Shown here: positions 2,611 to 57,265 of the stretch, piece after piece
How the letters are laid out: every line of letters starts with the position of its first letter
Position numbering within the stretch: position 1 is the first letter of the stretch
Origin: Branchinecta lynchi
Lineage: Eukaryota > Arthropoda > Branchiopoda > Anostraca > Branchinectidae
Assembly: GCA_023053575.1 (NCBI GenBank)
Contig: JAKZAP010000001.1
Span: 27,360,533 to 27,424,532 of the forward strand
Direction: 5' to 3'
DNA length: 64,000 nucleotides
Position numbers and translations under genes: made by a program
Notes under the pieces: model-generated
What the model saw: the letters and a program-made list of their open reading frames with translations, nothing else
What the model was told of the DNA's origin: nothing
Database searches by the model: none

Positions 2611-3109
2611 TAACAATAGTCGTGCACGCCTTTCTTCTATAGTTTCAAAAATTTCTAGTCTTTTCCCAGATAATGGACTGTCTATCAATGTGGGAAAATG
2701 TGAGTTCTAGGTTTTTAACGATCTTTCTTCTCAGTTTTCCTTTTTGTGTAAACATTCAATAATTGGTTGCTACTTTTGAAAAAAGGGTAATATGGATTCT
2801 GTACCGGATATACAGATTTTTCATTACGAAATTATCGAGTGGCTTTCCATAATATCTGCATTTTACGTGAAGGGAGATTCTACTCGAATTTTATTCAAGG
2901 AGCTATTCGGAAGCATTTAGCATTTGAAGTTTCTAGATCACATCCATCCAAATCGCGACTACTAACAGGGACTCAGTACGAACGTCGCATTCATCTATTG
3001 GCGTGATCCTGAATCACCCTTATGGGCAAGCTGAAAATCGATCTTAATGTAAAGAGTTGGACATCCACGGACTCTTCATTCACTTTCTGTACTATACTTT
3101 TATTTGCAG

Positions 3110-3384
3110 GTTCAACGCCTTATCCAGGCCTCGCCGCGGGGGAGGTCTTGAAACGGGTGAAAGAAGGCTATCGCCTTGAGAAGCCAGAACACTGTCGCCG
3201 GGAGCTCTACACTATTATGCTCTCCTGCTGGGATTCTAAGCAAGCCGGAAGACCAACGTTCTCCGAACTTGTTGACAAGTTTGACGAGCTCTTGTGTACA
3301 GATGTGGACTATATCCAGCTAGAGCAATTCCCCGATTACTCTTATTACAACGTAGTTCAGAGTAAAGGTGAAGAGAAGGTCTGA
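3110..3384 (+). CDS. Cad96Ca: Receptor tyrosine kinase, Cad96Ca/Stitcher-like, terminal coding exon
   Basis: The acceptor TTATTTGCAG ends at 3109. The first base completes the Gly codon split at 202, giving the unbroken kinase text VTLG-STPYPG. The exon holds the end of the C-lobe: LKRVKEGYRLEKPEHCRREL, the MLSCW motif, and the invariant Arg of subdomain XI (GRPTF). A short tail of about 35 residues follows, with several Tyr residues (DYIQLEQFPDYSYYN), and ends at TGA 3382-3384. The PEHCRREL segment and the Tyr-rich tail are what I associate with Cad96Ca; the tail tyrosines are plausible phosphorylation sites (inference). No frameshift or missing catalytic residue is visible, so the gene looks functional. 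The intron before it (203-3109) is filled with repeats. Confidence 0.85.
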
Positions 3385-13974: not shown

Positions 13975-16390
13975 TACGTTTGCAGGAGCACCATCTGCTG
14001 GAATCTTCTTTTCGTTATCTGATCTGTCCTCTATCTGCTATATTGCACCAGCTTTCCCTACTGGAGGGCGTCTTTCAGGGGGTGTGTGCATTATCGTTCG
14101 TAGTCATTTTGGCGCTTCCTTATTGACTTTTTAAAGATATTTTATCGCTGTTAAAATTTAAAATTGTGTTGTATTTACATGTTATTTGACGACTAACTAT
14201 AATACTGTTGATTCCGATTTTGAATTTAATGAAGCGGGCTTCGAAATATCTGTATGTCTTGCTCGAGTACCTGATGGTTGCGATTGGGTGATGTGTGGTG
14301 ATATGAATTGTGATTTAACTAATATTCCGGATTTTCGGTGTTCACTTTTTCTTTCAATGCCTCCGTCGTATAATCTTACTCCAAAGGATTCGGATGCTTC
14401 TTATACTCACAATTCTGGATCTTCTTCGAATATTGAACATGTTTTAAGTTCCAGTCTTAATTTAATATCTAATCCCGTGCATGTTGGAGAAGACCTGCCG
14501 ATCAACGACCATTTTTATCTTTCTTTTACTTTCTTTTTACCTGATTTACCTTCTATTTTGAAACAGTGTTCTAATAAATTTGTAAATAGAAGAAGTTGGG
14601 ATAAAGATAAAATTTGTAAATATCACGAAGAGTCGGATGCTATTTTATCAAAAATTATTGTCAATAGACCTGTTTTAAGTTTACATCAGGTTGATATAGA
14701 TATTTTTTATTTTGAAATTGTGCATGCTTTAAAATTCGGAGCAAGAAAAGCTTTTGATTCGGTCCGTTGTCGGACAGGTACCCGTGTTTTTGCATGGAAG
14801 TTGAACAGAATTTTAATTTAAAGCCAGAAACACGCACATGAAGCTTTTATTTTGTGGAAATCGGCTGGTCGTCCAAGGTTTGGGCCTTTTTTTTAAATTA
14901 TAAACTTACGAAGTCGATTTTCCGATCTGAATTGAGAACCCATAATGATTTTGTTAGAGAGGAAGTTAGTGATCGTATTTCTAAAAATGAAAATGGTCTC
15001 TGGCGTTTTGTTAAAAGTAAAACAACAATGTTTCATAATACGCCTGAGGATAAAAGCACTTTTGTCCTTGATGATTCGGTTTCTCATTTCAGTCGAGTTT
15101 TTGCTCGTCGTGATGATAGTGTTCATAAGAGCCTGGATGACCAGCTTAATTCCGGTCTGCTGCGATCTGACTTGGGACAAACTATTTCTGTTTCTGCGGA
15201 GGATTTTGTAGCTGGAATTAAAAAGCTTAAATCTAAGTATTCTTTTGATCATGATGGATTAACTTCGAAGCATAATAAATGGGCTTCCCCTAACGCTGTT
15301 CTTCTTCTTTCTACATTGTTCTCTCTAATTCTTTCTACTGGTATTCTTCCTTCTAGTTTTTCTCGCGCTACTACCTCTCCTCTCCTTATGAAGGGGGGCA
15401 ATTTCAATGATTGGTCATGTTATCGGCCAATAACTATATCTTGCCAGCTAAGCAAGTTGTTTGAAATTGTTTTGCTAAAATATTTTGAGCCGGGCGATCA
15501 AGGACTGAATCAGATTGGTTTTCGAAAGGGTCTTAGCATGGATATAGTTCATAATCTTTACTCTAACCCTGGACATTGCGGCAGCTTAAGACTATGTTAT
15601 TCATTCTTGGTCAATGTCTGCTCTCCATAAAAATGGGGTCCCTCTGCAAGTTTTTCTAGTTATGAATCAGTGGTATAAGAGTTCTTATATTATAATTAAA
15701 TGGAAAAATAACTTAAGCGATTTTTCGGTGATTTTAAAGAGAGGTCTGAGGCAAGGGAGCGTACTGTCTCCTATTATGTTCAACGTAACTATTGCTTCTT
15801 TATTTAATTCTTTTAGAACTTCACTTGTTGGTCGAGGTTTTGTAGCGTCTTGGATTGCGTATGCGGACGATCTTCTTCTTCTGAGTCGATCACGCGTTGC
15901 TCTTCATAAGAATGTGGACCATTTAATTGAACTTTTTTCTAGATTTGGTTTAAGGTTTCGTCCTGAAAAGTGTCAGCTCCTAATTTTTGGTCCTAAGCCT
16001 GCTGACACAATTAATAATAATTTTAGTATTAAGATGTATGATGTAGTTCTTAAGCCACTTGAATCTTTTCTTTATTTGGGAATTCCGTATGGGCCATTAG
16101 TTTCCCTTTGCCGAGCTCATATGATGAAATCTGTTCGGTCGAGAGTTTCAGCGAGCTTCGGTAGTGTTATTTCTGTTCAGGATTATTTAACTAGGAGATC
16201 GTCTGCGCGCGTCTTCAGTACGGTTGCTCTACCTCAAGTCCTTTTATTTTCTAGTTGGCTTCCTTATTTTTCTAAGTCTAATATTGCGTATATTAAAACT
16301 ACTTTTTTTAATTTTGGTAAATTTTTGTGTCGACTTCCAAAATTCCATTCTACTTCATCCGCTATGTCACTAGCCAAAATGTTTGGGGGG
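13975..16390 (+). pseudogene. Non-LTR retrotransposon ORF2 (endonuclease-reverse transcriptase), inactivated
   Basis: The sequence starts inside an APE-type endonuclease (LQEHHLLES near 13980; GGVCIIVRSHFG near 14080) and is open from 14186 with CDWVMCGDMNCDLTNIPDF. There is a frameshift and stop near 14820, then an RT domain: GLTSKHN, SCYRPITISCQLSKLFE, QIGFRKGLS, a second frameshift near 15620, LRQGSVLSPIMFNV, the catalytic YADD at 15860-15871, and a thumb region to about 16390. The catalytic Asp pair is intact, but at least three frame changes and a missing 5' end make it inactive. ORF1 is not present. The family differs from the elements at 24620 and 59150. Confidence 0.85.
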
Positions 16391-16690
16391 TGGGACGAGG
16401 TATTTACCGAGTGGCTGGTAATTTTACCGACTGTTTCTGCAGAAAAACGACTGTTTTCAACAACAAAAATTATAGTCTTACAAAAATCGACTGATTTTCA
16501 GAAAAATCCACTGATTTTCAGAAAACCAACTATTTTGACGAAAAATCGGCCAATTTTCACAAAAACGACCGAAAAAAATCAACTGTTTTAACGAAAAATC
16601 GCGGCACTTCGCACCGACTCGGACAGCATTTGGGGGCGCGGGGGGGTGTCCCCCCCCCCCTCCCCCCAGTCGTAACGCCCCTGTACCTGA
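16391..16690 (+). repeat. R-D repeat: short AATCGACTGTTTT-type units with G/C tract end
   Basis: Repeated CGACTGTTTTC / CCACTGATTTTC units spaced by AGAAAAA, then CGCGGCACTTCGCACCGACTCGG, then a G/C tract, then CCAGTCGTAACGCCCCTG. The last motif in reverse complement (CAGGGGCGTTACGACTGG) looks like an hAT-type terminus. Similar sequences occur at 10860, 22550-22735 and 36775-36935, so this is a dispersed family, possibly a DNA transposon. Confidence 0.5.
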
Positions 16691-17249
16691 CACTATCTCT
16701 TTCTTCTCAAGAACAAGCACCATCGCCAGTTCACGTATTTTCAATCGCTCCTTTCACAGTGTTTTGGGGATCCCAAAACGTATGTGGAGGGATAACTATG
16801 ACATCGCAACAAAACTCGTCAGCCTGTCCGTCTGTTAGCACGATAACTCTCGAAGAGAATAAGATATTTTGACAAAACTTGGTGTGAGGTCAAGGGTAAG
16901 GTCATGTTCGTAAATTGGCTCTGTATCCCTACATTTAGGAGTGGGGGTTCAGATTAAGTGGCTAACAGGGGCCAGATAAGTAGTTCGTCCGGAATACGAA
17001 AAAAAATGGAAATTTGGTTGAAAGTAAAAGTTTCATTTGAAGTTGATTAAATGTTCGACTTAGGGATAAGAAGACATGCTGAACATTTACGTGACAAGTA
17101 TTTTCTACCCGGACAATTAGTTCGCCCGGAATCCAGAGAAAACCAGAAAATTTGTTGAAATCAAAATTTTGTTTTGAAGTTGATTAGATGACAGATTTAA
17201 GTAAGAAGAGACGCTGAGTCTGCATATGACAATCGGTGATAGATATTCC

Positions 17250-17575
17250 TACGGCCCAAGCTGACTGCGAATCATATTTGACGGTGCAAAACGGATAAGC
17301 CAGCTACATTTTATTCGAGCTATATTTCGGCCCTTCTTGGCAAGGGTCCTCTTCAGGCTCAAGCCGCTCAAACTGGAAAATAAACTTGTGGAAAAACAAT
17401 TAAAGATTCTTCCTTAAATATCTGCTTTTGTGAACTTCTCTGAAAATTTGTTGGAGTTAAAGCTGGTGCTGCGATTTCATTCTGGACGCGGCTACTGTTT
17501 TTGTTGTTCGATTGGATCGTCGAAAGGGTAGAGATTCTTCTGCATTTTGGTTTTAGAGTCACCTGTCTCTTTCTT
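17250..17575 (-). mobile_element. Hammerhead-bearing repeat element, copy at 17.3 kb
   Basis: Shares with the copy at 42235-42540 both the hammerhead region and about 170 bp upstream of it (TCTGAAAATTTGTTGGAGTT, GGTAGAGATTCTTCTGCAT on the + strand). Downstream of the ribozyme (on the - strand) it has the conserved TTATCCGTTTTGC and GCAGTCAGCTTGGGC module that also follows the motifs at 34531 and 38450. It has no ORF of its own that I trust. It fits a non-autonomous retroelement such as a Penelope-type terminal repeat or a retrozyme; no Penelope reverse transcriptase is visible in the window. Confidence 0.55.
17315..17362 (-). ncRNA. Hammerhead ribozyme motif, minimal type, best copy
   Basis: Read on the - strand: stem I strand TTGAGC (17362-17357); core CTGAAGA (17356-17350); stem II (GG, bulged A, CCCTT, 6-nt loop, AAGGG, CC); core GAA; palindromic ATAT giving a 2-bp stem III (A15.1-U16.1) when two copies pair; cleavage-site base A; then GCTCGA, which pairs with TTGAGC (six pairs, one G-U). 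The conserved G10.1-C11.1 pair closing stem II is present. Hammerheads with very short stem III are known in Penelope-like elements and retrozymes. Activity is inferred, not shown. Confidence 0.65.
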
Positions 17576-18458: not shown

Positions 18459-21400
18459 TCACTGGTGAAAAATAGGCACGAATCCCCCGACTTCAAAAAA
18501 GGGGTCACCGGTTGCTTGGGTTTGTTGAGTGTTGCTTCCTTGGGCAGTCTGGTCTTCGGAAGGGGGGATGTTTCCTACCCCCAACCAGGCAGCATTGGGG
18601 TTCGAGCCGGAGACTGCTGAGTCTTCGGGTTCCGAGTGACTGACTCGTTGGCTTGGAATGAAGGGAGCGCCGAGTCCAACCAGCTTCGGCGGTCCAGGCG
18701 TGACTCCCGGAGGTAGAGTGGCTATTCTTTCAGTTGTTGGTCTTGGACGAGGCCGCGCGGTAACCGGTTTACCATCGGAGCCCACTTTGAATGTTTTCAC
18801 CGAGTCTGGGTTGAACGTTGGACTGAACTTCGTGGTCACACCTGGTTCAGGCCCTTCTGGCGCGACCAAAAATTGCGATCTGTTCGGTTTATTTGGGGCA
18901 GAGGGTAGGTCTAGGATTGGTTGAGTTGTCTGTGTCTTGGCAGCTGTAAGAGGAGAAAAAAACACCGGACTGGGCTGTTTTGGTTTCTGTGATTCCCCTG
19001 AAAATCCGGCAAAAGATTGGGTGGCTATCGGCGGCATAGCTTGAACTAAGGGAGGTGGTTGCGAAGGTCTCAGGCCAGAATCACTCTGAACCCCTGGAGT
19101 CCCTGGGCCTACTGGAGCACCAAGAGGGAATAAGGGCGGTCTGTTGTCACGTAGGGGAGAGGTAGGGAAAGGTGTCGGTGCAGCAGGAAGGCTGCTTGGA
19201 ACAGGAGGTTGCTTTTGGGGAGCTTGCCGAATTGCGATTGGTTGAGCCAGATTTTGTGGGGGAGACAATCCACTAAGTTGCTGTAGAAGACCTGTCGGCA
19301 AATTCAGGGGAGGTAAACCCGGTCCGTTATTCACAAGTCCTTGCCTCTGTGACGGCGCCTGAGCGACAGGGAGGCTTGCCGTTTGTAGCGATACCTTTTG
19401 GTTCAACTGTTCAGATATGGTGTCCGATCTATCGTTGAAATTATCTGGCACAGATGCAGCTTGAATAATGAAGACACCGTTTTCAGACATCTGGGATGTT
19501 ACGGGGATCCGTACGTATTTTTCAGCTGTCGGAAGCTCTTCAGTCTCCTCGGTGTTAGAAATATCGCTTTCTGCCTTTTCGAATACTTGCTGCTGTTGAA
19601 CCTGCTCAGGGGAAGTCGGGGAAGCAACTTCTACGGCGTCTTTGTGAACAGGGATACTAGCTGGTGCAGCATCTTTCATCACTGGCGCTACATTTTGACG
19701 GTCAACCTCTTGGACTGCAATGCTAGCAGGGTCCACATTCCTTATTGATGGAGCAACATTATGTGGCTGGAGTGGGACGTGTGCTGGATGTACTGCCTCA
19801 TGATATGATGGTTGCTCTGGGGCTTGAGGCTGGATATTAGGTATCGTATGGATGGGGGCAGCAAAGGGGATATCTGGAACCGAACCACTCTTTGCTGGTC
19901 GAACTAGTCCGGGATTTGCCAGCTGGCCATTGGGAGTAATTAGCTCTTTCTTTGAGTCCTTGTTTCTGAAGCGTAGCAACGGTTTTAGTTTCTCAACAGA
20001 ATTCTTAACTGCCGATGCGACTACTCCAGTCAAGCTTTCCGACTCAGGTTCTTCTGCTCCATCTTCCTCTGTGCCTACATTCTCAGGAATAGATAGCTCA
20101 CTGTTCACAGGGTCGAGCACAGCTTCCACTGGTTTCCGTTGTGTTCCAGCAGGAGCCGGAGCTTTCTTTCTGGGGAATACGATACCATTTCTCACCGGTG
20201 TTTGTTTCTGGGGGATAGATGGCTCCAGTGAAGGCTTTCTCTGTTGGTTGGAGTCGGCGGGAAGTGGTTTCTTGAAGATAGACGATGGCGAGCTAAATGC
20301 TTCACTTGGATTCAATTTGTCTTCTCTCCTTTCTGAATCATTCTTAGTGTCCTGGACGGAAGGAAGATCAGCGATTGCTTCAACATGGACAAGCTCAGCG
20401 CCTTCTACAAGTGGTGCTTCTCCGTTGAATGGTCCAACGACAAGCAGTGGAACTTTCTTACCGGGAGGGTAGTAGTAGAAGTGCGGTGGCGTGCCGTCCT
20501 GGGCTGGAGCCACTTGCTCTTTCGCTTGTTGGATTGCTGTTAGTTCGCTTCTGTCTAGCTTTCTAATTTCTGAAATGCTCCTCGACTCCATAGCGATGGG
20601 CTCCTCGTCGTCGATGGAGCGCTTCCTTCGATTGTTGCTCCTTCGCCCAAACATTGATGAGAAAATGTTGGTGATGGAAGAGAAAGGTCCAGATGACTGC
20701 TCTTCTCTAGGAGGCTCTCGGAAGTCTTGACGGAAATTTCCTGGTGGAGGTCTTCCAAAGGGGACATCAGCTGGTCCTGGGCGACCGCTGAAATTATCTT
20801 GGCGGATAGGGAAGCTGGCAGGCCCCACTCCTGGCCGCAACTGACCTTGAAACTCTTTCTGAACTGGGCCTTGACGAACTTGCTGTGGGCGCGTACCCTC
20901 TTGAGGTCTGACAATCGGTCTGTTAAAATCTGGCCGAGGTTGGTCATTCCTACTAAATCCTGGTTGTTGGGGCCTTTGCTGCGACTGGGAAGGATTTCCT
21001 GGTGCACCAGAAAAGGGGGAGTCACTGTTAAACACGGATGGAAAACCTCCCTGAGGCCCGGCTGTTGCACTTGGTTTGAATTCAGGCCTGCGCACTTCGG
21101 GCTGAGGCTGTTGTGAATTGACCTTTGCCTGCTGTTTAGGTTGCTCTCGCGAATATCCCTCTGGAGGTCTGGGCACAAAATCAGAATTGAAATTAGGTCT
21201 TTGATTTTCGGAATAAAATTGGCTGACAGGCCTTAGAGGGCGTTCTATTTCTGCCACGTGTGGTGGGAGACCATGAGAGTTTGTTGTTTCTTTGAGTATG
21301 TTCGACTCAGGCTTGCCAACGTGAAAATAAACGGCTTTGTCCCCTGTGTTACGTTCGTCATCGTAGTCATAAATGATGTCGTCATCATAGACATGAGCCG

Positions 21401-22361
21401 GTTTCTTTAAGATAGTTGTCTCAGTCTTCTGAGGAGAAACTGGCGGCAGTCGATCAGCGGGTCGCTCAGTATATAAAGGGGTAGGTTCTGGAAAGAACTT
21501 TTCTTTCTTGAACGTAGTTGGGTAAGGTTCTGCAGGTTTTCTCTCTTTTTGCTTGGGCGGGTATCGTTCTTCATCGTATGGTCTGTCGTACGTACGTACA
21601 TCTTCGAAGGTTTCTTCGGGCTTCGGTCGCTTAGTTTTATTCTTATTCCGCTGGGATGTATACACTGATGGGACGTCGTCGTATTCTGGAGTGTATGGTT
21701 TGTTGGAATCTCCTGCAAAAGGCTCCCGGTGATCTATTATGTCATATTCCTGGTTATACCGTTCTCGCTCAAGTTCTTGTGGTTTTGGAGACTCTGGCTG
21801 CTGGCCTTGCGGAACGTACCTGTCTGACTCGTCCTCTTTTGGATCGAAGGGCTCAGGCTTTCCGTGTTGTGGAATGTATCTGTCTCGCTTGTCCTCTTTC
21901 GGCTTAAAGGACTCTGGCTCCTCGCCTTGTGGAACATATCTCTCTCGCTGACCATCTTTGGGCTTGAAGGATTCTGAGTTTAGGGGGCGACGTGTGTACT
22001 TCACCCCGGGGCGCTTCGTTGGCTCAAAGTCCGAATCAGAGCTGTAGTCAGCTGTTGTTGTAGTTGTCGTCGATCTGTACTTGTACTTTTTAATTGGTTT
22101 CTCCGTGTATTCCTCGCTGTCTTTTCCACCTTGGAGCTTCGTGTTTGCGTAACCGCTTGATACTAATGGTTGTTTCGGTCTTTTGAATTTATCATGTGGG
22201 TTGTAGGTCGTCCCGTTGCCATAATCGTGGATTGGTATATTCAGAAGGTCGTGGAAACCCGGTGGGAAGAGCTGGAAAGGGTTTATGTCGTTGCTTTCTG
22301 GTTCTGCGATATCTTCAGAGACTCGGTCAACTGGCTCCTTTCTTGACAATCCTTTCCGGTC
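18459..22361 (-). CDS. Secreted Pro/Gln-rich extracellular protein, large terminal exon (1,300 residues)
   Basis: This is the longest open frame in the window. The acceptor TTTTTCTTTTCAG precedes GACCGGAAAG at 22361. The frame is open farther upstream to an ATG at 22475, but that part lies in the intron. The exon ends with TGA at 18461-18459. The protein is low-complexity: three charged repeats of about 22 residues (E/P-S/P-F-K/D-P-K-E...RD/ER-Y-V/I-P-Q, about residues 65-155), an acidic/Tyr region, long Pro/Gln/Asn-rich blocks, a dibasic RRSNNRRKRS site near exon residue 580 (furin-like), the conserved-looking FYYYPPGKKVPLLVVGPFNG at about 630, and a Pro-rich C-terminus ending FVPIFHQ. No enzyme domain or membrane segment is visible. 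It joins in phase 0 to the exon at 32131-32463. By composition it suggests a cuticle or matrix protein (inference). Confidence 0.85.
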   Translation of the reverse strand, partial: DRKGLSRKEPVDRVSEDIAEPESNDINPFQLFPPGFHDLLNIPIHDYGNGTTYNPHDKFKRPKQPLVSSGYANTKLQGGKDSEEYTEKPIKKYKYRSTTTTTTADYSSDSDFEPTKRPGVKYTRRPLNSESFKPKDGQRERYVPQGEEPESFKPKEDKRDRYIPQHGKPEPFDPKEDESDRYVPQGQQPESPKPQELERERYNQEYDIIDHREPFAGDSNKPYTPEYDDVPSVYTSQRNKNKTKRPKPEETFEDVRTYDRPYDEERYPPKQKERKPAEPYPTTFKKEKFFPEPTPLYTERPADRLPPVSPQKTETTILKKPAHVYDDDIIYDYDDERNTGDKAVYFHVGKPESNILKETTNSHGLPPHVAEIERPLRPVSQFYSENQRPNFNSDFVPRPPEGYSREQPKQQAKVNSQQPQPEVRRPEFKPSATAGPQGGFPSVFNSDSPFSGAPGNPSQSQQRPQQPGFSRNDQPRPDFNRPIVRPQEGTRPQQVRQGPVQKEFQGQLRPGVGPASFPIRQDNFSGRPGPADVPFGRPPPGNFRQDFREPPREEQSSGPFSSITNIFSSMFGRRSNNRRKRSIDDEEPIAMESRSISEIRKLDRSELTAIQQAKEQVAPAQDGTPPHFYYYPPGKKVPLLVVGPFNGEAPLVEGAELVHVEAIADLPSVQDTKNDSERREDKLNPSEAFSSPSSIFKKPLPADSNQQRKPSLEPSIPQKQTPVRNGIVFPRKKAPAPAGTQRKPVEAVLDPVNSELSIPENVGTEEDGAEEPESESLTGVVASAVKNSVEKLKPLLRFRNKDSKKELITPNGQLANPGLVRPAKSGSVPDIPFAAPIHTIPNIQPQAPEQPSYHEAVHPAHVPLQPHNVAPSIRNVDPASIAVQEVDRQNVAPVMKDAAPASIPVHKDAVEVASPTSPEQVQQQQVFEKAESDISNTEETEELPTAEKYVRIPVTSQMSENGVFIIQAASVPDNFNDRSDTISEQLNQKVSLQTASLPVAQAPSQRQGLVNNGPGLPPLNLPTGLLQQLSGLSPPQNLAQPIAIRQAPQKQPPVPSSLPAAPTPFPTSPLRDNRPPLFPLGAPVGPGTPGVQSDSGLRPSQPPPLVQAMPPIATQSFAGFSGESQKPKQPSPVFFSPLTAAKTQTTQPILDLPSAPNKPNRSQFLVAPEGPEPGVTTKFSPTFNPDSVKTFKVGSDGKPVTARPRPRPTTERIATLPPGVTPGPPKLVGLGAPFIPSQRVSHSEPEDSAVSGSNPNAAWLGVGNIPPSEDQTAQGSNTQQTQATGDPFFEVGGFVPIFHQ

Positions 22362-22549
22362 CTGAAAAGAAAAACTTTTAAGTTCAACGTGGCTTGTCCC
22401 ACTGACCGGGCTTGCATAATTGGCAAGCTGAACCGGATGCCTAATAATTAGCCAAGTCAGAGAAATGTGGAACACTATTCAGAATGAGTAGAATTTTGTT
22501 ACTAATCTGAAAGAGGACCTAGGATCACATATCACCAGAGTTATGTCTA

Positions 22550-34131: not shown

Positions 34132-34288
34132 GCTATGGATTGTGTAATCCTGACCCGGACCCGGAAAAATTCCAACTTTTCCGTACGGAATTGCTAATGG
34201 TGCCGACGATCTTGTCAAGAATTGTAGTCCGTGAACGGCAGACCTTTATTGCCTCTTCGCACCATTACGAGTTGACCGTAATGGTGAC

Positions 34289-34318
34289 CTGACGAGGACC
34301 CTTGCCAAGAAAGGCTAA
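34289..34318 (+). ncRNA. Hammerhead-like core, degraded
   Basis: CTGACGA at 34289-34295 is followed by the stem II strands (GGACCCTT, loop, AAAGG). The GAAA box is lost (GCTAAGT), so this copy cannot be active. Confidence 0.4.
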
Positions 34319-34431
34319 GTTCCAAGTCGCATGTGCCAGACCTTAATCGTCTGTTTGCACCATTGCGAGCAGCAGTGTTGGCACTGGCAGGTTCTTGACA
34401 ATGCTAAACGGATAAGTTAGCTACATTTTAA

Positions 34432-34479
34432 TATATCTATATTTCGGCCCTTCTTGGCAAGTGTCCTCTTCAGGCTCAA
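34432..34479 (-). ncRNA. Hammerhead ribozyme motif, stem I broken
   Basis: On the - strand: TTGAGC, CTGAAGA, stem II with ACACTT opposite AAGGG (one mismatch), GAA, ATAT, A, then GATATA, which no longer pairs with TTGAGC. The core is complete; stem I is not. Confidence 0.5.
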
Positions 34480-34530
34480 AGCCGCTCAAGCTGGAAACTA
34501 ACTGGAAAATTAACAGAAGCTTGAGCAGCT

Positions 34531-34578
34531 TTGAGCCTGAAGAGGACACTTGCGAAGAAGGGCCGAAGTATAGCTCTA
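34531..34578 (+). ncRNA. Hammerhead ribozyme motif, near-complete
   Basis: TTGAGC (34531-34536), CTGAAGA (34537-34543), stem II with one mismatch, GAA, GTAT (G in place of A15.1), A, then GCTCTA, which pairs with GAGC over four bases. It is head-to-head with the copy at 34432-34479, and the two are separated by only about 50 bp. Confidence 0.5.
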
Positions 34579-34658
34579 ATAAAATGTAGCTGACGTATCC
34601 ATTTTGCGTTGTCAAATTCGCAGTCAGCTTGGGCTGAAGGAATATCCATTCCTCTTAC

Positions 34659-34706
34659 TACAGCCTGATGAGGACCCTTGGCAATAAGGGCCGAAATCTC
34701 ACCGGA
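34659..34706 (+). ncRNA. Hammerhead ribozyme core without stem I
   Basis: CTGATGA (34665-34671), a perfect CCCTT/AAGGG stem II with GG/CC closing pairs, and GAAATCTC. The bases on either side do not pair as stem I. It lies 128 bp after the previous core on the same strand, and the conserved module GCAGTCAGCTTGGGCTGA lies between them. Confidence 0.5.
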
Positions 34707-34719
34707 ATAAATCTTAGCT

Positions 34720-35355
34720 GCCACGACCAGTGCGAATATTATGCTTGAGTGGGCAGGAAAATGGAAACTGCTCATTTCCTTCTCCACTTCACGATTCCAT
34801 CACATTTTGAAATGAAAGTGTTTTTTTGCTCTATTTATTATTTGTCTCAAGACCGATCTGTTATTAAGAGCTATCGGTAAAGTCAGCTGAATGAGTGAAA
34901 CCGCAATTATAAATACTTTACGTCATGTGATTTTGAATATAACTCAGCCCGAATTGTCTAGACCGCAAATCACCATGAGCCTCTTATTAGCATTGAGTGT
35001 GAATAGTAATAAGTGAAAAAAACACCAATTCGTCTAATGAGATCTTTAGTAATGTAAACATTAAGATTTAATTGCCTCATGTGCTTCCGAAATTTGTTGC
35101 CACTTTGGTACAACAAAACCGGCACATGGACTGACTACGGTTGGCAAAATGTCATATGGATTTGGCATCAAATATTGTCGAACAAGAATCTAGTTAAAAC
35201 TGTGACCGACTAAGTACTACAACAAAATGTAAATTCTGGAAAATAGGCACTACAGGCCTAGAGAGCGTGCGTTTCGTTTGTCGATTTTCAAAAAAAATGT
35301 ACAAAAGAAAGAACAAAATTTCCCCAACTGAAAACGCAATACTTAACAGGATGAA
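34720..35355. other. Nothing recognised
   Basis: AT-rich sequence without repeat-family or coding signal that I can support. Confidence 0.4.
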
Positions 35356-38205: not shown

Positions 38206-38221
38206 CAAATAATAATTTGGG

Positions 38222-38345
38222 TTGGCATTTTGAGTCGTGGGCATATTAATCGTGGGCATTTTGATCGTGGGCATTTTGAACCGTGGGCATTTTAATCGTG
38301 GGCATCCTGAGCGTGGGCATTGTGAGAGTGGGCAAAAAGATCGTG
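38222..38345 (+). repeat. TCGTGGGCATTTTGA minisatellite
   Basis: About eight units of a 15-bp repeat, the reverse complement of the arrays at 1365-1480 and 37740-37835. Confidence 0.8.
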
Positions 38346-38449
38346 GCGATTTTGGGAACCACCCTGGAAAAATACTCCGTGAGCCCAAGCTGACTGGGAA
38401 AAAAATATTCAAACAATCCATAAAACGGATACATCAGCTGCGATGCTTT

Positions 38450-38497
38450 GGCAACGATATTCGGCCCTTCTTGGCAAGGGTCCTCGTCAGGCTGTCC
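38450..38497 (-). ncRNA. Hammerhead ribozyme motif with an alternative stem I
   Basis: On the - strand: GGACAGC, CTGACGA, the same stem II as the copy at 17315, GAA, TATC, then GTTGCC. GG-CAGC (A bulged) pairs with GTTGCC over six bases, although both strands differ from the 17315 copy. One A of the GAAA box is missing, so this copy is probably inactive. Confidence 0.5.
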
Positions 38498-38647
38498 AGC
38501 GCCAGGGACAACGTGGGGTCGAGTAAATTTGACGACATCTTCTTCGCATATGTAGGCCTAAATATCTATATTGTTTTTAACCCGTTCCGTTCAAACTAAA
38601 CAAGAACCGAGTAAATAAAAGAAATGTAAAGAATAATAGAGAAACAA

Positions 38648-42234: not shown

Positions 42235-42540
42235 CTGAAACACGGTGAAATCATATTTGACGGTTCAACACGGAGAAGTCAGCTATATTTTCTTAGAGCT
42301 ATATTTCGGCCCTTCTTGGCAAGGGTCCTCTTGTTGTGGAAAAAACAATTAAAGATTCTTCCTTAAATACCTGATTTCGTGAACTTCTTCTCTGAAAATT
42401 TGTTGGAGTTAAAGCTGGTGCTGTGATTTCATTCTGAGCACGGCTGCTGTTTTTACTGTTCGATTGGGTCGTCGAGAGGGTAGAGATTCTTCTGCATTAT
42501 GGTTTTGGACTTTGCATTTCTGGCCATGGTAGGTCAAACC
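42235..42540 (-). mobile_element. Hammerhead-bearing repeat element, copy at 42.3 kb, core deleted
   Basis: Collinear with 17250-17575. The GAAATATAGCTCTAAG side and stem II are intact at about 42295-42328, but a deletion replaced CTGAAGA with ACAAGA and removed the 5' strand of stem I. Confidence 0.6.
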
Positions 42541-43768: not shown

Positions 43769-45299
43769 GGTTGCCTCAGCGGCAAAGTCCTTATGTCCTC
43801 TAGTTTCTCTTATGCTAGCAGTCTCTCTTCTTCTTCCTCTGCCGACACTTCACCATCTTTCGGTTGTTCCATCTCCATTAAATGAAAGTCCCATTTCCGT
43901 TTGCAATGACAACGAAGTAACCCATCACATACGAATTGAGCAGCATCTAAGGACCGACTGAGAATCACCATACTGAAGAGGAGCCACCTAGGCTCCACAT
44001 TTGGCATTACATTGAACCTGTGCTTTCTGGTATTGATCAAACACTTGTCAATAACAACAGCTGATGTCTCTGCTTGTAATGCCCACGGCGAGCAGTGCAA
44101 CAGTGCCAGCATTTACATGCAAAAAGAAAGGAAGCTCAGATCGTCCAACCCGGGTATCAGCTAAACGTTATTGCTGATACTGTGAGGACGCGAGTGAAAG
44201 TTATTGTGCAAACTAAAAGGATGTAAGGTGGATTTGTGGCGTAATGAAACTACTGCTACATATATTTTGTTAAAAAGTAGAAAAAATGATGTGCAGAAAA
44301 GGATGGATAGCAGTTTTCTTGCTGGCTAGATCAGGCAAGTTGTATTTTAGTACGGTTGATGTCGTCATTATATTAACTATTTTAATCGTCCAGCGGATAA
44401 GATTCCGTTTTCGAAAGCTTAGTAATCTGATGTTGATCAAAGGACTTTGTTCTTGGAAGCTTGGGAATGAGGTTTGTTATTACGCGAGTCAGTTTGTGAA
44501 AACAGTAATTAACTTACAGTATCTTTAATCTTGGAAAATGGTCCACTGTTATTAAATGACGGAAGTTTTAATAAAGATGACGCTTTTGTTTCCACTAGTA
44601 TGGACAAATATGCGTCACACGTATTGTTTAATAGTGAGGAAATCTGTCACTGAAGATTGAACAAAATGGAAAATTTGAAAAGTGCAACACTAGCCTATAC
44701 CTGGTCAAATGTAGGCTTGGTGAGAAGGACGGGTTCTAACTATCTCAACCATAGACTTGGAAAATCTGTACTTTCACGAATGTGCTACATGTGTCAAGGA
44801 TGACGTCACATAGAACCGCCCAACATTCTTGATACAGTTAGCTTCCGCGTATCAAGTATATACGTAACGAAGGTCAAGCCTGTATAATGGTTTGAATATC
44901 CGGGTTGAAGATCTTTGAACTGGGCATCCCCTCCGGTAGCATGCGTTCTAACAAGTTTTCGCATCAACACAGCCCTGTTTTAAAATAATTTTTTGGCGAA
45001 CATGGACGATAAAATAACCGCAGCTGACCTAGCCTTAAGATGAGAATTTGGTTTCCTAAGAGTCCTAGCCCATTACCTTTGGAAGTATCCTCTGTAACCG
45101 CGCCTTCCCGTATAACCAGGCATTAGTGATACTGAAAATATAACCAGTGCCCCACAACAGAACAATAGCCCGTAAACAAGAGCTGAAAGCTCATATGGCA
45201 CTTGCGATAATAGGCAAGACGTTGGCAGGAGTTTTTTTGTGTACAGAGTCGAATATTATTTTATTCTACACTAGTAAGTAAAAAGTAGACTCCTTGAAC
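43769..45299. other. Intergenic; no gene seen
   Basis: Several short frames exist but none has a recognisable product. The text near 44230-44330 (a WRNETTATYI-like frame) is weakly protein-like and may be a transposon scrap. Confidence 0.35.
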
Positions 45300-45427
45300 A
45301 TTTTTCCCATTAAAATTCAAAAACAGATTAATCATCTGAGAAAACCAAGTTCAGATATTGAATCAGCATGTGTGTTTACCCCTGTAAGTCATATCTGCCT
45401 TGACGAAAACCGAGGGGTTGCGCACTG

Positions 45428-45650
45428 GTGCCTCATGGTGTACAAGTTCCCTGCCTCATGCCTGCCTCACGTGCCTCGTGTCTGCCTCACGTGCCTCATG
45501 TCTGCCTCACGTGCCTCATGTCTGCCTCACGTGCCTCATGCCTGCCTCACGTGCCTCATGCCTGCCTCACGTGCCTCATGTATGCCTCATTTGCCTCATG
45601 TCTGCCTCACGTGCCTCATGCCTGCCTCACGTGCCTCATCGCCCGTTCTG
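45428..45650 (+). repeat. 20-bp minisatellite, left array
   Basis: About ten units of GTGCCTCATGCCTGCCTCAC with variants (CATGTCTG, CATGTATG). Long frames over it in all three phases (such as CLPHVPHACLTCL) are products of the repeat and not genes. Confidence 0.95.
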
Positions 45651-45889
45651 GTGACAAGTTTAGGGATTTTTGAAAATGTTCGCTCAGCTACGAGATCTGT
45701 GATGAATAACAAAAAGAGAGGGAGCTTCTTATCCCCTCGGGAAATTTGAACTGGGTTGTCCATGCGGATTATTTGAAAGGTAAAATAAATATTTCTTGTT
45801 AGTTGATTAATGCCTTTAAGAAACCCTGGTAAATTATCTCTGACAGACTTAGGTATACTCAGGACTATTCAAAAGACTACTCAACGACT

Positions 45890-46195
45890 ATTCTTAAGGC
45901 AGTCTGTTCGTGTCCCTGATATGCCTACCAAATTTCATTGTCCTAGTACTGAACTCGCGGGATCACCGAATTCCCCCCCCCCCCCAAACTCCCGCCACAG
46001 TGCCCGAATCCGGTCCGGTTCTCTCAACGATGTATCTAGAACTTGTGCTTGTTCTTCCGACCAAGTTTCGTCCCGATCCCTCCACTCTAAGCGTTTCCCA
46101 AGATTTCCGGCTCCCCCCTCCAGCTCACCCCAAAGTCACCGGATCCGGTCCGGATTCTAAGTGGGTCGCCTGAGGCACGAGATCTCTCCAAACAT
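45890..46195 (+). repeat. R-A unit nested in the 3-kb transposon
   Basis: CCCTGATATGCCTACCAAAT, TTTCATTGTCCTAG, a C tract, GTGCCCGAATCCGGTCCGG, CCAAGTTTCGTCCCGATCCC and CACCGGATCCGGTCCGGATT together make nearly one full R-A unit. Confidence 0.75.
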
Positions 46196-46199
46196 CATT

Positions 46200-46217
46200 G
46201 TGTTGCGAGAGCAACAC
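46200..46217. other. Perfect hairpin GTGTTGC-GAGA-GCAACAC
   Basis: A 7-bp perfect stem with a GAGA tetraloop at the boundary where the R-A unit stops; CTTTGGTTTTGTCCTCG follows. It may mark the end of another element. The remaining interior (46220-47150 and 47400-48130) holds nothing I recognise. Confidence 0.45.
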
Positions 46218-47149
46218 TTTGGTTTTGTCCTCGTTTTTTTTTTTTCCTATGCCGCCGATTTCATTTTCTTCCTGGTAATTGATAAGGGTCTAACCTGTGC
46301 GGTTTTTACGGAAAGTGTGGACCTTAGGCCGGATTGATGAATATGACATTACATTTTGGAAAGCTCCGTAGAACTCTTGCCTGGGGCCAATAAGGATGGT
46401 TTTTGCTTGTCCTCGAGCCAGAGCCTACGGTTTGCGAAGTGAAGTGGAGTTGTATAGCCTATGTCAGAGAGGACTATCTGAAGTTGTGCAGCCAACCTTT
46501 CGTTTCATCAAACCATGTTTCTGCTTTCGAGTGGAAAGCTCCGCTCTAGCACGCAAGCAGGCAGGCACCAGTTTCAAATTGAAGATGGATTAAAATCCAT
46601 AAGTGTTAAATATATGCGGCAGTTACCCGGCCCCATAGCCAACATATCTTCTTTGAGTGATAAATAGAAAAATCTACAGCAAACCAAAAAGTGGCTTTTT
46701 CCCACGGGTCCGAAAGTGCCCATCTCTTGTTTCTATCCATTTGTGTTCACGATTTCAGCTGAGTTTATCATTCGTTTTTTTGCGGTAGAAAAATGGTATC
46801 AGATGTACATCTTAAACTTTAGAACTTCTCTCATTGCTAAAGAAATTGGAGCTTAGCCTTTGCTCCTTTCTAAGTGGTGACGTTAGAAAGTTGGCCTACG
46901 GCAAAAATGTCAACTTTTGAACGAAGACAGGTAGAATTTTTTTTCTACGGCAATCGATAGCCGTTGATGAGCTGATCAAAGTATATGACATCCGTTTTTT
47001 GGTACAAAGATTCCTTCATGAGATACACCAGTTTGAAAGTTTCAAGGGGTTGACAACTTCAGTAGGAATGTACACACGAAACCAACAATAGGCGATACCA
47101 GCTGTGAGACATGTAGGGTACTTATATGCGACAGTCGAAATATGTTAGC

Positions 47150-47400
47150 TCATAATCATCTTCGGCAATGAGGGGTTTGCAGCTTGGTTTATCTGTGATT
47201 TGTTTCCGGTGTATTCGATGGTAAGAACAATTTGGTTCCCAATTGTAAGACATGCAAGGGACTTGTAAGTAATAATCGGATGTTATGCTACAAAAATCTT
47301 CAGCGATGAGGGGTTTGCAACTTTTGCTACCTGGTGTACCCATTATTTTTATCCGGTGAACTTGATGTCTATCATGGGAGAGGGACTAGTAAGTAAGAAT
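47150..47400 (+). repeat. Two diverged tandem units of about 125 bp
   Basis: ATCTTCGGCAATGAGGGGTTTGC near 47158 and ATCTTCAGCGATGAGGGGTTTGC near 47297, each followed by a Ccggtg-type segment (TTTCCGGTGTATTCGATG / TATCCGGTGAACTTGATG). Confidence 0.65.
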
Positions 47401-48131
47401 CGGTTCACGAGGGGCTAGAAATTTGTGCAAATTGTTCTATATTGTATTTGATTTATATAAATCTGACGGTAAGAAAGTTTGTATCGATGGTCTATCGCTG
47501 TAACCTAGGATTAACTGTTTCCGCAACTGGTACAAACGATAATATAAAATAATGAGGTAGTTTCGTAATAATTAATAGTGTCGTCTATGGTATTTTAGTC
47601 CTGAAAAGTTACGGATAGCTTTATAATACCAACTAGATTATATGAGATATTCTTCCAAGTTTTCTATTCTTCCAAGTAAATTCCAAGGTAAAATCTCGGA
47701 CAATTCTGGTATAATCTTGGAGCTGCCCCTCCCCACCCCCTCCCCCTACAAGAAAGGGCTCGTGATGCCCCTAGGTATACTGTAAAACCAGTCAGGGTTT
47801 CACACTCAATGACTATGGTGTCAAAACGAACCGTCAAATGTGGGCCAAAATCAAATGGTCAAATGAGAATCGTCTGCAGATGGCGCGCGGGAATTTTTCC
47901 ATCCCATCCGTTACATTGCTAGATAGGCGAGTTAGACCTCTTATATTACTATCATGATACTCTGTGGCCTGAACAGTACTGTCGGTACTGAGTACTTTCA
48001 GAGATTCGCCACAAACGAATTGCTTAATCGATATGTAATATCAAACAAAAATGTTGCGACATTTTGACACTGACATTGCTAAGATTTTTTGGTCCGATGA
48101 CTTCAATTCTACGCAAGTTGTATTTTCATCG

Positions 48132-48410
48132 TGTCTGCCTCGCGTGCCTCATGTCTGCCTCACGTGCCTCATGTGCCTCATGCCTGCCTCACGTGCCTCA
48201 TGCCTGCCTCACGTGCCTCATGCCTGCCTCACGTGCCTCACGTGCCTCATGCCTACCTCACGTGCCTCATGTCTGCCTCACGTGCCTCATGCCTGCCTCA
48301 CGTGCCTCATGCCTGCCTCACGTGCCTCATGCCTGCCTCACGTGCCTCATGCCTGCCTCACGTGCCTCATGCCTGCCTCACGTGCCTCATCTGCCTCTGC
48401 CTCATGGTGT
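48132..48410 (+). repeat. 20-bp minisatellite, right array
   Basis: About thirteen units of the same GTGCCTCATGCCTGCCTCAC repeat as the left array, in the same orientation, followed by TGCCTCATGGTGTAC, which also occurs beside the left TIR. Confidence 0.95.
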
Positions 48411-49559
48411 ACACGAAATCGGCCAGTGCGCAACCCCTCGACGAAAACTTTCTGCCACTTCTGCAAATTTCCCGGTCTCGGCCGAATTCCGGAACTACTT
48501 GTCCGGGGAAAAAAGAAAGCTGAAAAACGAACTCAGCATATCTTCTTTCCCCAATAAAGAACATCTAATCAACTTTAAATACAAATTCAACTTATAACAA
48601 ATTTTCCGGTTCCAGCCGGATTCCGGTCGAACTATATGTCCGGGTAAAAAATGACTGTCATACACGGATTCACCATCTCTTTACCCCTAAATCGAATACC
48701 TAACCAACTACAAATTAAAACTCTAACTTTTAACGATTTTCGGTTTTGGCCGGATTCCGCGCGAACTACTTGTCTGGATAGAAAATTGTTTTCACATAAG
48801 TGTTCAGCATGTCTTCTAATTCCTAAATCGAACATCTAATCAACTCCAAAACTTTTACTTTTAACAAACTTTCCGGTTTTGGCCGGATTCCGGGCGAACT
48901 ACTTGTTCGACGAGAAAATGTTTTTCACCATTCTGTTCAGCATGTTTTCTTACCCCTCAATCGAACATCAATAGAAAATTGTTTTCACATAAGTGTTCAG
49001 CATGTCTTCTAACTCCTAAATCGAACATCTAATCAACTCCAAATAAAACTTTTACTTTTAAGAGACTTTCCGGTTTGGGCCGGATTCCGGGCTAACTACT
49101 TGTCCGGGAAAAAATGGTTTTCATCATCGTGTTAAGCATGTCTTCTTACCCCTACATCTAATCAACTTCAAATAAAACTTTTACTTTAACAAACTTTCCG
49201 GTTTTGGCCGGATTTTGGGGGCGAACTACTTTTCCGATGACAAAATGGTTTTCACCATCCTGTTCAAAATGTCATCTTACCCCATAATCGACTATCACAT
49301 TATCTGCTCAAAAATATTTCATTTGCGCCTTAATTTAAACCCCCTCCCCCACCCATAAATGTAGGGCTACATACCCCATCTACGGCTTGACCTTACTCTT
49401 GACCCAAAGAATCCTCACACCAAGTTTCATCAAAATATATCATTCCCTTCGAGAGTTATAGTGCGCACGGACGGACGGACAACTTTTGCGATGTCATAGG
49501 TATCCCGCCACTTACGTTTTCGGATCCCTAAAGGTATTTTATTGTTGAACTTGGCTGTA

Positions 49560-55685: not shown

Positions 55686-57265
55686 GTTGACCATTTCGTT
55701 CCTGACTCGTGAAAAGTTACAATGCTGCAGTACTCCAAGCAGTACCTTTGATTACTTACAATATAAAAGCATCGACTAGCTAATATTTAACGAACAGCAC
55801 TATAATACAGCACTATACTAATATCCAACGAACAGCACTATATATTATACAGCACTACACGTTAGGGCTGGAACTTGTTCAAGGAACACAAGAAAGTTGA
55901 AAGTTGCGGAGCCTGAGGCGGTTGCATTCAGTGCTGCCAACCGTCGGAGAATTCTGCGACTTGTCATTGGTTTTAGACTTCTCCTCAGATACACAGGTGG
56001 GAAAATTTTGTCACAGGAAATAGCACTTATGCCGGAAATGGCACAAATATCTGCGATTTCAAATTATTTTACTCTCTTTTCCCGAAAAAGTATTTATTTA
56101 TTTTATGGATATAACTCCTTTTATAAGACCAAATTGGAACCTAAGAATCCACGATTTTTTCTGGAAACTTAAAAATTGGGCCGAACTTTGTAAGCTCCAG
56201 AATGTCACAGCCTTTTACAGCCTAATAGCTGCGTTCTTTATCAGGGGAGTTCTCACCGGTGGTCTCCGGTTTTTCGTATAAGCCGTTTTTGCATCCACCG
56301 GTGACTTCTCACCAGTCTTATAACCCGTTTTTGAACTAACCAGTGTCCGGTTTTATCTCACCGGTGCGGACTAACCAGAACCTGCTCGTGAGCCCGGCTT
56401 CATTCATTCCCCGGCTTTCATCAACTCACAGTTGAACCAAAAAAACGCGTTTTAAGGGAAGAACCTGACACTCTTGACTAAACACCAGAGGCAGCCCGGA
56501 GTGCAACGAACGCAGCTAATGTCACAGGTTCCGCCAGAGAAGAGTGGCAACACTGTCCATAGTTGAAGCTCGACAGTCAGAATGGCCCAGTTTCCTGGAA
56601 CGGCCGAAGACGCGAGAAGTAGTCCCTCAGCCTAAGTGACTGCAAATCATAAACGATGGTGCTAAACGGATAGTCAGCCAAGATTTACTTCAGGTGTATT
56701 TCGGTCCTCCTTGACAAGATTCCTCGTGACGTGAGGCTGTAGCAAGGAGGAAAACATCTTCAACCAGAGATTGCATTTTGGACTGAAGGTCCATTTGTCG
56801 GAATGAGTCGATTTATTACATGCAGCCTAACAATAAGGATTTGCGCAGTGTAGGCTACACAGGAAAATAAGTAAATAAACGCTTGACAAGAAATAAAGAG
56901 CAGCATTATCACAATATTTACGATAACAGCAAAAGATAAGTAAACACAAACAACGGAGCAAGAGTAGGACAATAAATTACTGCATTAGCTGGCGCATTAG
57001 GCAGTGGGTAGGAAGGCGGTTGGATTATGGCAGAAGAGGCCCACTTATTTCTTTTAGTTTGACAGTTGGTTCCAAGACAAAAAACACCAAAAATATGATT
57101 TGTCTTGATCCAGAAGCAACAAAAAGAAAAGAAACACACAAATCTAGCGCCAGAGAAAACATCCCAGTCAGCACCACGGACGTTTGTGAGGTGTCACAGT
57201 TGGTTCTGGTTGAAAAATGCTGTTGAATTTGATGTTCTGTATAACACTAGCAAGACTTTCGCCAT
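55686..57265. other. Intergenic or intron; CACCGGTG cluster and a degraded hammerhead piece
   Basis: At 55795-55860, AGCACTATA repeats occur. At 56250-56390, TCACCGGTG/CCACCGGTGA and related GGTCTCCGG motifs repeat and form small hairpins. No coding exon for the cadherin gene was recognised here. Confidence 0.4.
56688..56742 (-). ncRNA. Hammerhead-like core, strongly degraded
   Basis: On the - strand: CACGAGGAATCTTG, loop, AAGGAGGACCGAAATACA, followed at a distance by CTGACTATCCGTTTAGC and TTTGCAGTCACTTAGGCTGA. The family is clear from the downstream module; the core CTGANGA is lost. Confidence 0.4.

Follow-up and report, generated by a model that had tools for sequence, protein, structure and literature searches.

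The window analyzed here is a 64,000-nucleotide stretch of a Branchinecta lynchi contig, and on its minus strand, at positions 17315-17362, lies a motif that reads UUGAGC-CUGAAGA-GGACCCUUGCCAAGAAGGGCC-GAAA-UAU-A^GCUCGA and that is the best preserved of the window's hammerheads, a member of subfamily 1. Hammerhead ribozymes are recognized by the core boxes CUGANGA and GAAA, a U-H dinucleotide at the cut, and stems I and II. Both core boxes (CUGAAGA and GAAA) are present in the motif, as is the cleavage-site UA, and the predicted cut falls between 17321 and 17320. Its stem I comprises 6 bp, including one G-U pair; its stem II pairs GG-(bulged A)-CCCUU with AAGGG-CC, the bulged A lying two pairs from the core; and AUAU occupies the position of stem III. 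A preliminary description, which gave no strand, had claimed a 48-nt motif with a hammerhead core and a 6-bp stem I, and this we confirm on the minus strand; of the stem structure it reported, stems I and II stand, with the bulged A of stem II left unmentioned. The pattern CTGAAGAGGN{12,26}GAAATATAGC has a single match in the window and none across 100 shuffles. A strict scan of the window returned no match because it disallowed the bulge in stem II, and an Rfam search of the window, at gathering cut-offs and at E up to 10, did not detect the hammerhead.

In 45-nt pieces taken from the window copy and from an intact copy, the best fold consists of stems I and II with AUAU free (-15.7 and -14.8 kcal/mol). 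Both the core, with its U-H at the cut and its stems I and II, and the palindrome standing in the place of stem III, with no stem III in the folded monomer, are those of a minimal Penelope-type hammerhead. As no stable stem III formed in the 45-nt pieces, we do not class the motif as a canonical type I hammerhead; the minimal architecture proposed for it, of type I, is supported. When longer stretches of 84, 128 and 142 nt are folded, the best structure gives the stem I strand another partner. Relative to two separate folds of stems I and II, a double hammerhead joined by an AUAU stem III is unfavorable by 4.7 and 5.2 kcal/mol, and the cofold of two 55-nt pieces gives yet another pairing. Because the energy model is one without tertiary contacts, these dimer estimates are not decisive, though they lend the dimer no support; action as a dimer through the palindromic AUAU is possible. 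A small hairpin is also present just behind the cut in a locus with an intact open reading frame (ORF) (L030, reversed, approximately 789-810) and in other copies of subfamily 2, where it takes up the 3' strand of stem I. This hairpin is CUGAU/AUCAG in intact copies and, judged by eye, seems to covary in older ones (C-G, U-A, G-U, U-G); such a hairpin might rival stem I for pairing or prevent religation.

Three rounds of nhmmer identified eight hammerhead copies in the window, that is, the motif at 17315 and seven relatives, in agreement with the earlier claim of at least seven. They extend over 17301-17360, 34419-34477, 38434-38494, 42279-42332 and 56674-56738 on the minus strand and over 34288-34316, 34533-34593 and 34661-34720 on the plus strand, and several are decayed. 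By their sequence, the window copies are truncated pseudo-LTR (pLTR) pieces of a Penelope-like element. The piece enclosing the best hammerhead (17242-17550, minus strand) consists of a 5' part resembling the end of the element's ORF, followed by pLTR, hammerhead and tail. Its upstream positions -189 to -99 align with the ORF end at 3043-3133 of L029, a locus carrying the ORF (75.8% over 91 nt), and positions -189 to -18 align with a degenerate duplicate of that ORF end (L029 3260-3437, 64.8%). The tail, at 17243-17275 on the minus strand, is a decayed ORF start (MIRSQLGP*EY, compared with the intact MFQSQLGLKEY) and is where the copy ends.

The remaining copies are less complete or more altered. 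At 34288-34316 (plus strand) nhmmer found a fragment with only the first core box and stem II. Two subfamily 1 copies form a head-to-head inverted pair, the left arm at 34395-34522 on the minus strand, with a broken stem I in its hammerhead, and the right arm at 34518-34646 on the plus strand, reaching the tail; directly behind the right arm, on the same strand, is a copy of another subfamily (34661-34720), with U at N7 and a broken stem I. Sub-gathering Rfam matches to the microRNA families RF03908 and RF01021, on both strands at 34458-34552, coincide with the head-to-head arrangement, which probably produces them artefactually. The copy at 38370-38518 (minus strand) belongs to subfamily 2, which is why its stem I differs; the observation, reported for 38450, that this stem nonetheless pairs (CAGC with GUUG) holds, and the copy has lost one A of GAAA. 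In the subfamily 1 copy at 42249-42502 (minus strand) a deletion has removed the 5' strand of stem I together with the greater part of the first core box, and its upstream stretch resembles that of 17242-17550. Finally, an old copy at 56620-56752 (minus strand) has a damaged first core box and reaches the tail.

Several other features share the window. An array of the 15-bp unit CGTGGGCATTTTGAT at 38221-38354 adjoins the Penelope copy there, and a similar stretch follows the copy in locus L021. A reverse transcriptase ORF on the plus strand at 15614-16591 (RVT_1, E 7.3e-18) probably belongs to another, LINE-like element, and the long frames with repeated CLPHVPHACLTCLMPASRAS at 45294-48597 (plus strand) are probably a minisatellite. 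The large ORF at 18459-22475 has as its best relative an Artemia franciscana protein (51% identity, covering 10% of the query), followed by Daphnia proteins, which suggests a branchiopod host, perhaps a fairy shrimp.

To gauge the family beyond the window we used a 314-kb sample made up of the window, an adjoining 200 kb, and five 10-kb pieces of other contigs, so that 264 kb of it is a single stretch of one contig. The sample holds 47 copies by nhmmer (E < 0.01) and 46 by a covariance model at E <= 1, although the 33 copies from which that model was built match by construction. Across the 576-Mb genome the pattern CTGANGAGGN{8,20}GGCCGAAATAT, which detects only copies with kept cores, matches 6,744 + 6,828 = 13,572 times, with no match in a reversed control; decayed copies are visible by nhmmer or alignment. 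The same pattern matches seven times in the 314-kb sample. Scaling the 13,572 exact matches by the 47 nhmmer copies per seven exact matches in the sample gives, by extrapolation, about 9 x 10^4 copies genome-wide, on the order of 10^5 remnants. The proposal that the family is dispersed is supported.

Stem I exists in two principal states genome-wide, GAGC/GCUC in 2,456 copies and CAGC/GCUG in 6,600, with the crossed, unpaired combinations rare (G-G 132, C-C 87), such that 9,056 of 9,275 copies (97.6%) are paired. These counts bear out, at the switched pair, the compensatory change that had been suspected in stem I. Since the copies descend from few sources, this covariation is mainly one compensatory switch between subfamilies, common by descent. 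In an alignment of 33 of the 47 sample copies (E <= 1e-9, model start kept), 89.0% of 354 pair cells are paired, compared with 84.8 +- 0.9 in shuffles and with 46 and 55% when the partner is slid by one. Nearly all double changes fall at pair 13-58 of stem I (CG 16, GC 11, GU 1, other 4, gap 1), and two pairs of stem II have one each. When the 3' arms are exchanged among 41 copies, 5-bp pairing averages 128.5 +- 4.0 compared with the 136 of 205 observed, a value reached in 398 of 10,000 such shuffles. The subfamily consensuses, typed from alignments, differ at 4 of 44 places, namely a single pair of stem I together with N7 and H17 (A or C immediately ahead of the cut, according to subfamily). 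All of these are free under the hammerhead rule.

The same comparisons bear on whether the hairpin is a ribozyme at all or a structural or coding relic whose conservation merely follows from descent. Stem II is almost invariant among copies, part of the motif can be read (by eye) in one frame in subfamily 2, and ribozyme activity is here a prediction from sequence, all of which a relic would accommodate. However, the four subfamily differences all lie at pairing or free positions of a hammerhead; N7, a second codon position in that frame, varies (A 20, C 18, T 2 and G 1 among 41 copies); and thousands of copies preserve the distance between the core boxes, as counted by a pattern limited to kept cores. 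We therefore regard a relic as very unlikely.

A Penelope-like element was indicated as the source of the copies by two published Penelope traits, namely 3' ends that lie within the beginning of the ORF and copies arranged head-to-head (PMC11167929, PMC3846280). The 3' limit of full copies is about 80 nt downstream of the cut, in ...AGTCAGCTTGGGCTGAAGGAATAT, and from alignment these 3' ends read as an ORF start, M(I/F)xSQLGLKEY, which takes the form MIRSQLGLKEY in subfamily 1, MFQSQLGLKEY in subfamily 2 and MTRSQLGLQDY in an older copy. The start MxxSQLGLKEY was noted from the 3' ends before the intact ORF, beginning MFQSQLGLKEY, was seen, and the prediction was borne out; the ORF of L029 begins MFQSQLGLKEYLSTKYGTF. 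A composite reverse transcriptase (RT) consensus led to natural relatives, one of which, P0021, was run against the genome; its designation as Penelope-type rests on that query and on its own RT and GIY-YIG domains. Among 656 candidates, at least 86 scored places are of Penelope type (best E 7.2e-55), and 18 of these contain an open 863-aa frame without a stop.

The 863-aa ORF combines a Penelope-type RT with a C-terminal GIY-YIG endonuclease, as judged by protein comparison. P0021 is 27% identical to it (137/510), YVDD is kept in an alignment of the ORF with seven relatives, and in the GIY-YIG region Y710, C714, C716, Y720, G722, R726, R731, H735 and E789 are invariant in all eight sequences. 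Among the 30 database matches listed, identity ranges from 25 to 36%; all 30 carry the precomputed domain PF28514, and most also RVT_1 and PF26215. Pfam itself gave no match to the ORF at E <= 1, and a search of the genome with the GIY-YIG Pfam model returned only two matches, both outside the element's ORFs, one of which we take for an SLX1-type gene, so that the family assignment rests on protein comparison. A regex search of the 314-kb sample for Penelope protein motifs found none. Upstream of an SLX1-like gene, at locus L026, there is a tail of the Penelope family reading MIYSQLGLKEY.

Three loci with the ORF establish how the hammerhead is placed in the element: L028, in which the 5' part of the ORF is replaced; L029; and L031, which has two tandem ORFs and includes L030. 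In both L028 and L029 the hammerhead follows the ORF; in L031 it follows the first ORF, and the stretch analyzed ends about 70 nt beyond the second. It thus sits in the spacer between two intact tandem ORFs, where L030 (reversed) has the stop codon at 411, the hammerhead at 753 and the next ATG at 839. The element thus has about 340 nt between its stop codon and the hammerhead, and about 50 nt between the cut site and the start codon of the next unit. A pLTR between tandem ORFs and a tail inside the ORF start are both Penelope characters, as are head-to-head inverted copies and 5' truncation, seen here as varied 5' ends. Among neighboring ORF matches within 6 kb (n = 18), 15 are head-to-head, three tandem and none tail-to-tail; among neighboring motif copies less than 150 bp apart in the sample (n = 11, by eye), eight are head-to-head, two tail-to-tail and one on the same strand, and the chance of at least 8 of 11 head-to-head, at one quarter, is 0.001. 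The upstream neighbor of L029 is likewise a head-to-head copy, with its hammerhead at the junction.

The upstream ends of the longer copies vary. A common 5' limit was considered for these copies and rejected once they were aligned with the full element: c28 reaches to -232, c7 to at least -294, c39 to -189 and c45 to -179, and these limits fall either in the ORF end or in the duplicate of it that the element carries in its 3' portion. That duplicate, at approximately 3173-3372 of L029, is a degenerate repeat of the element's own ORF end and the stretch behind it (2956-3153), and c7 aligns with both. In several copies (for example c7 and c12) a pyrimidine-rich tract that closes with CAG or CAAG, resembling a 3' splice site, precedes the hammerhead by some 20-50 nt. 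The one locus with a clear target duplication is L003, where a 5'-truncated copy has a flush duplication of 12 bp; over 16 tail ends the signal is weak, 3 of them sharing at least 9 nt with the sequence upstream, compared with 4.6% of controls.

Short copies far outnumber scored ORFs (47 copies in 314 kb compared with at least 86 ORF matches genome-wide), as might be expected if the family were a plain retrozyme. Yet the longer copies differ in where they end upstream, as expected for pieces of a full element, and autonomous elements bear the same hammerhead. Moreover, only 1 of the 11 neighboring motif pairs in the 314-kb sample is same-strand, its two copies being of different subfamilies; non-coding tandem repeats of about 150-450 bp were not found in the 314 kb, and the tandem units that do occur measure 3.02 kb and are coding. 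A plain retrozyme is very improbable. We consider it very probable that the motif represents a minimal type I hammerhead belonging to the pLTR of an autonomous branchiopod Penelope-like retrotransposon with an 863-aa RT and GIY-YIG ORF. The preliminary description was right in recalling that Penelope elements carry such hammerheads, and its suggestion of recent activity agrees with the intact ORFs and with the 98-99.9% identity of the copies fetched; its inference of an unnamed non-autonomous element fails, given the intact ORF.

How the hammerhead would act in such an element can be outlined. A tandem or read-through transcript would carry a pair of hammerheads spaced by 3.02 kb; alternatively, separate transcripts might meet. 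Mutual pairing of the AUAU strands would form stem III between the two hammerheads. Each might then be cut after UAUA or UAUC, releasing unit-length RNA with ends that tRNA ligase could join. The template for insertion would be RNA containing the whole hammerhead, with reverse transcription beginning within the first 11 ORF codons (the tail) and proceeding upstream through hammerhead, pLTR and ORF; frequent early stops would leave solo pLTR pieces, and self-priming would yield head-to-head pairs. As full 3' ends lie beyond the cut site, the inserted copies would derive from RNA that was uncut there or had closed again. Homology segments agree with an end in the tail, 21 of 53 ending within 4 nt of it (including two loci that supplied the queries). 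Cleaved RNA was also considered as a template; none of the 53 segments starts within 3 nt of the cut site, and while many segment ends reflect subfamily divergence rather than truncation, the copies thus give no sign of such a template.

A more specific role for cleavage would be the formation of circles. AUAU dimers would cut tandem transcripts, the 3-kb units would circularize through the hammerhead, and reverse transcription starting internally and running for more than one lap would produce head-to-tail tandem copies with pLTRs. The three tandem ORF pairs are spaced 3019, 3020 and 3019 bp apart. At C15, two tandem 3,019-bp units, each with an 863-aa ORF, differ at 4 of 2,682 bases (99.85% identity), less than either differs from L029 (99.33-99.57%) or L028 (98.4-98.9%), although this comparison covers one of the three pairs. 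A 3' end beyond the cut site would be impossible from linear RNA cut there, and circles have been proposed as templates of tandem copies for metazoan retrozymes, with Penelope elements as the likely source of the enzyme (PMC7229834). Linear tandem read-through or unequal crossing-over, however, would give the same picture, no segment begins at the cut site, and hammerhead mutants of the lizard element PAc insert like the wild type in vitro, where cleavage is described as needing the protein (PMC11167929). With no segment starting at the cut and PAc mutants inserting normally, the present data lend no support to a part for cleavage in insertion, and we hold circle formation to be doubtful, if less so than a relic or a retrozyme. 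Were it true, the missing role of the hammerhead would be the making of tandem copies that supply Penelope elements with their pLTRs.

The very probable reading, a hammerhead in a Penelope pLTR, adds a new example to a known association, since Penelope-like elements are already reported to carry minimal type I hammerheads in their pLTRs (PMC11167929, PMC7761336, PMC6466107). Searches of the literature for hammerheads or Penelope together with Artemia, arthropods, branchiopods or pLTRs gave, among the matches listed (titles and the starts of abstracts), none on this family. A review calls the in vivo activity and role of Penelope hammerheads a mystery (PMC7761336), and for this new member of the association the present genome is an unusually rich setting: with many intact, near-identical copies, tandem arrays and about 10^5 remnants, 5' ends, tandem units and the state of the ribozyme can be compared at scale.

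The closest parallels are found in elements described from other animals. A palindrome that replaces stem III in the monomer is described as a feature of minimal Penelope-type hammerheads (PMC7761336, PMC6466107); in the element described here stem III is AUAU and stem II has a bulged A, differing in this from the Penelope hammerheads set out in these sources (PMC11167929, PMC7761336, PMC6466107). The Poseidon element PAc of Anolis shares with it an RT and GIY-YIG ORF, pLTRs and a tandem arrangement, as well as a 3' end inside the first ORF codons and a hammerhead that lies close to the start of the ORF and nearly lacks stem III. In PAc, however, stem II is where the ORF starts and the cut falls 26 bp into the ORF, whereas here the cut precedes the start codon by about 50 nt (PMC11167929). 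The Penelope families of the rotifer Adineta vaga have pLTRs of about 200 bp that include the first 12 codons, a tail, solo pLTRs, and head-to-head inverted pLTRs with palindromic junctions, as here; their copy number is low where that of the present family is very high, and the word hammerhead is absent from that paper (PMC3846280). Metazoan retrozymes likewise carry type I hammerheads in repeats but are short, non-coding tandem repeats, unlike the 3-kb coding unit and its pieces, and the weak palindromic stem III of the axolotl retrozyme, which acts as a dimer, may be likened to AUAU here (PMC7229834).
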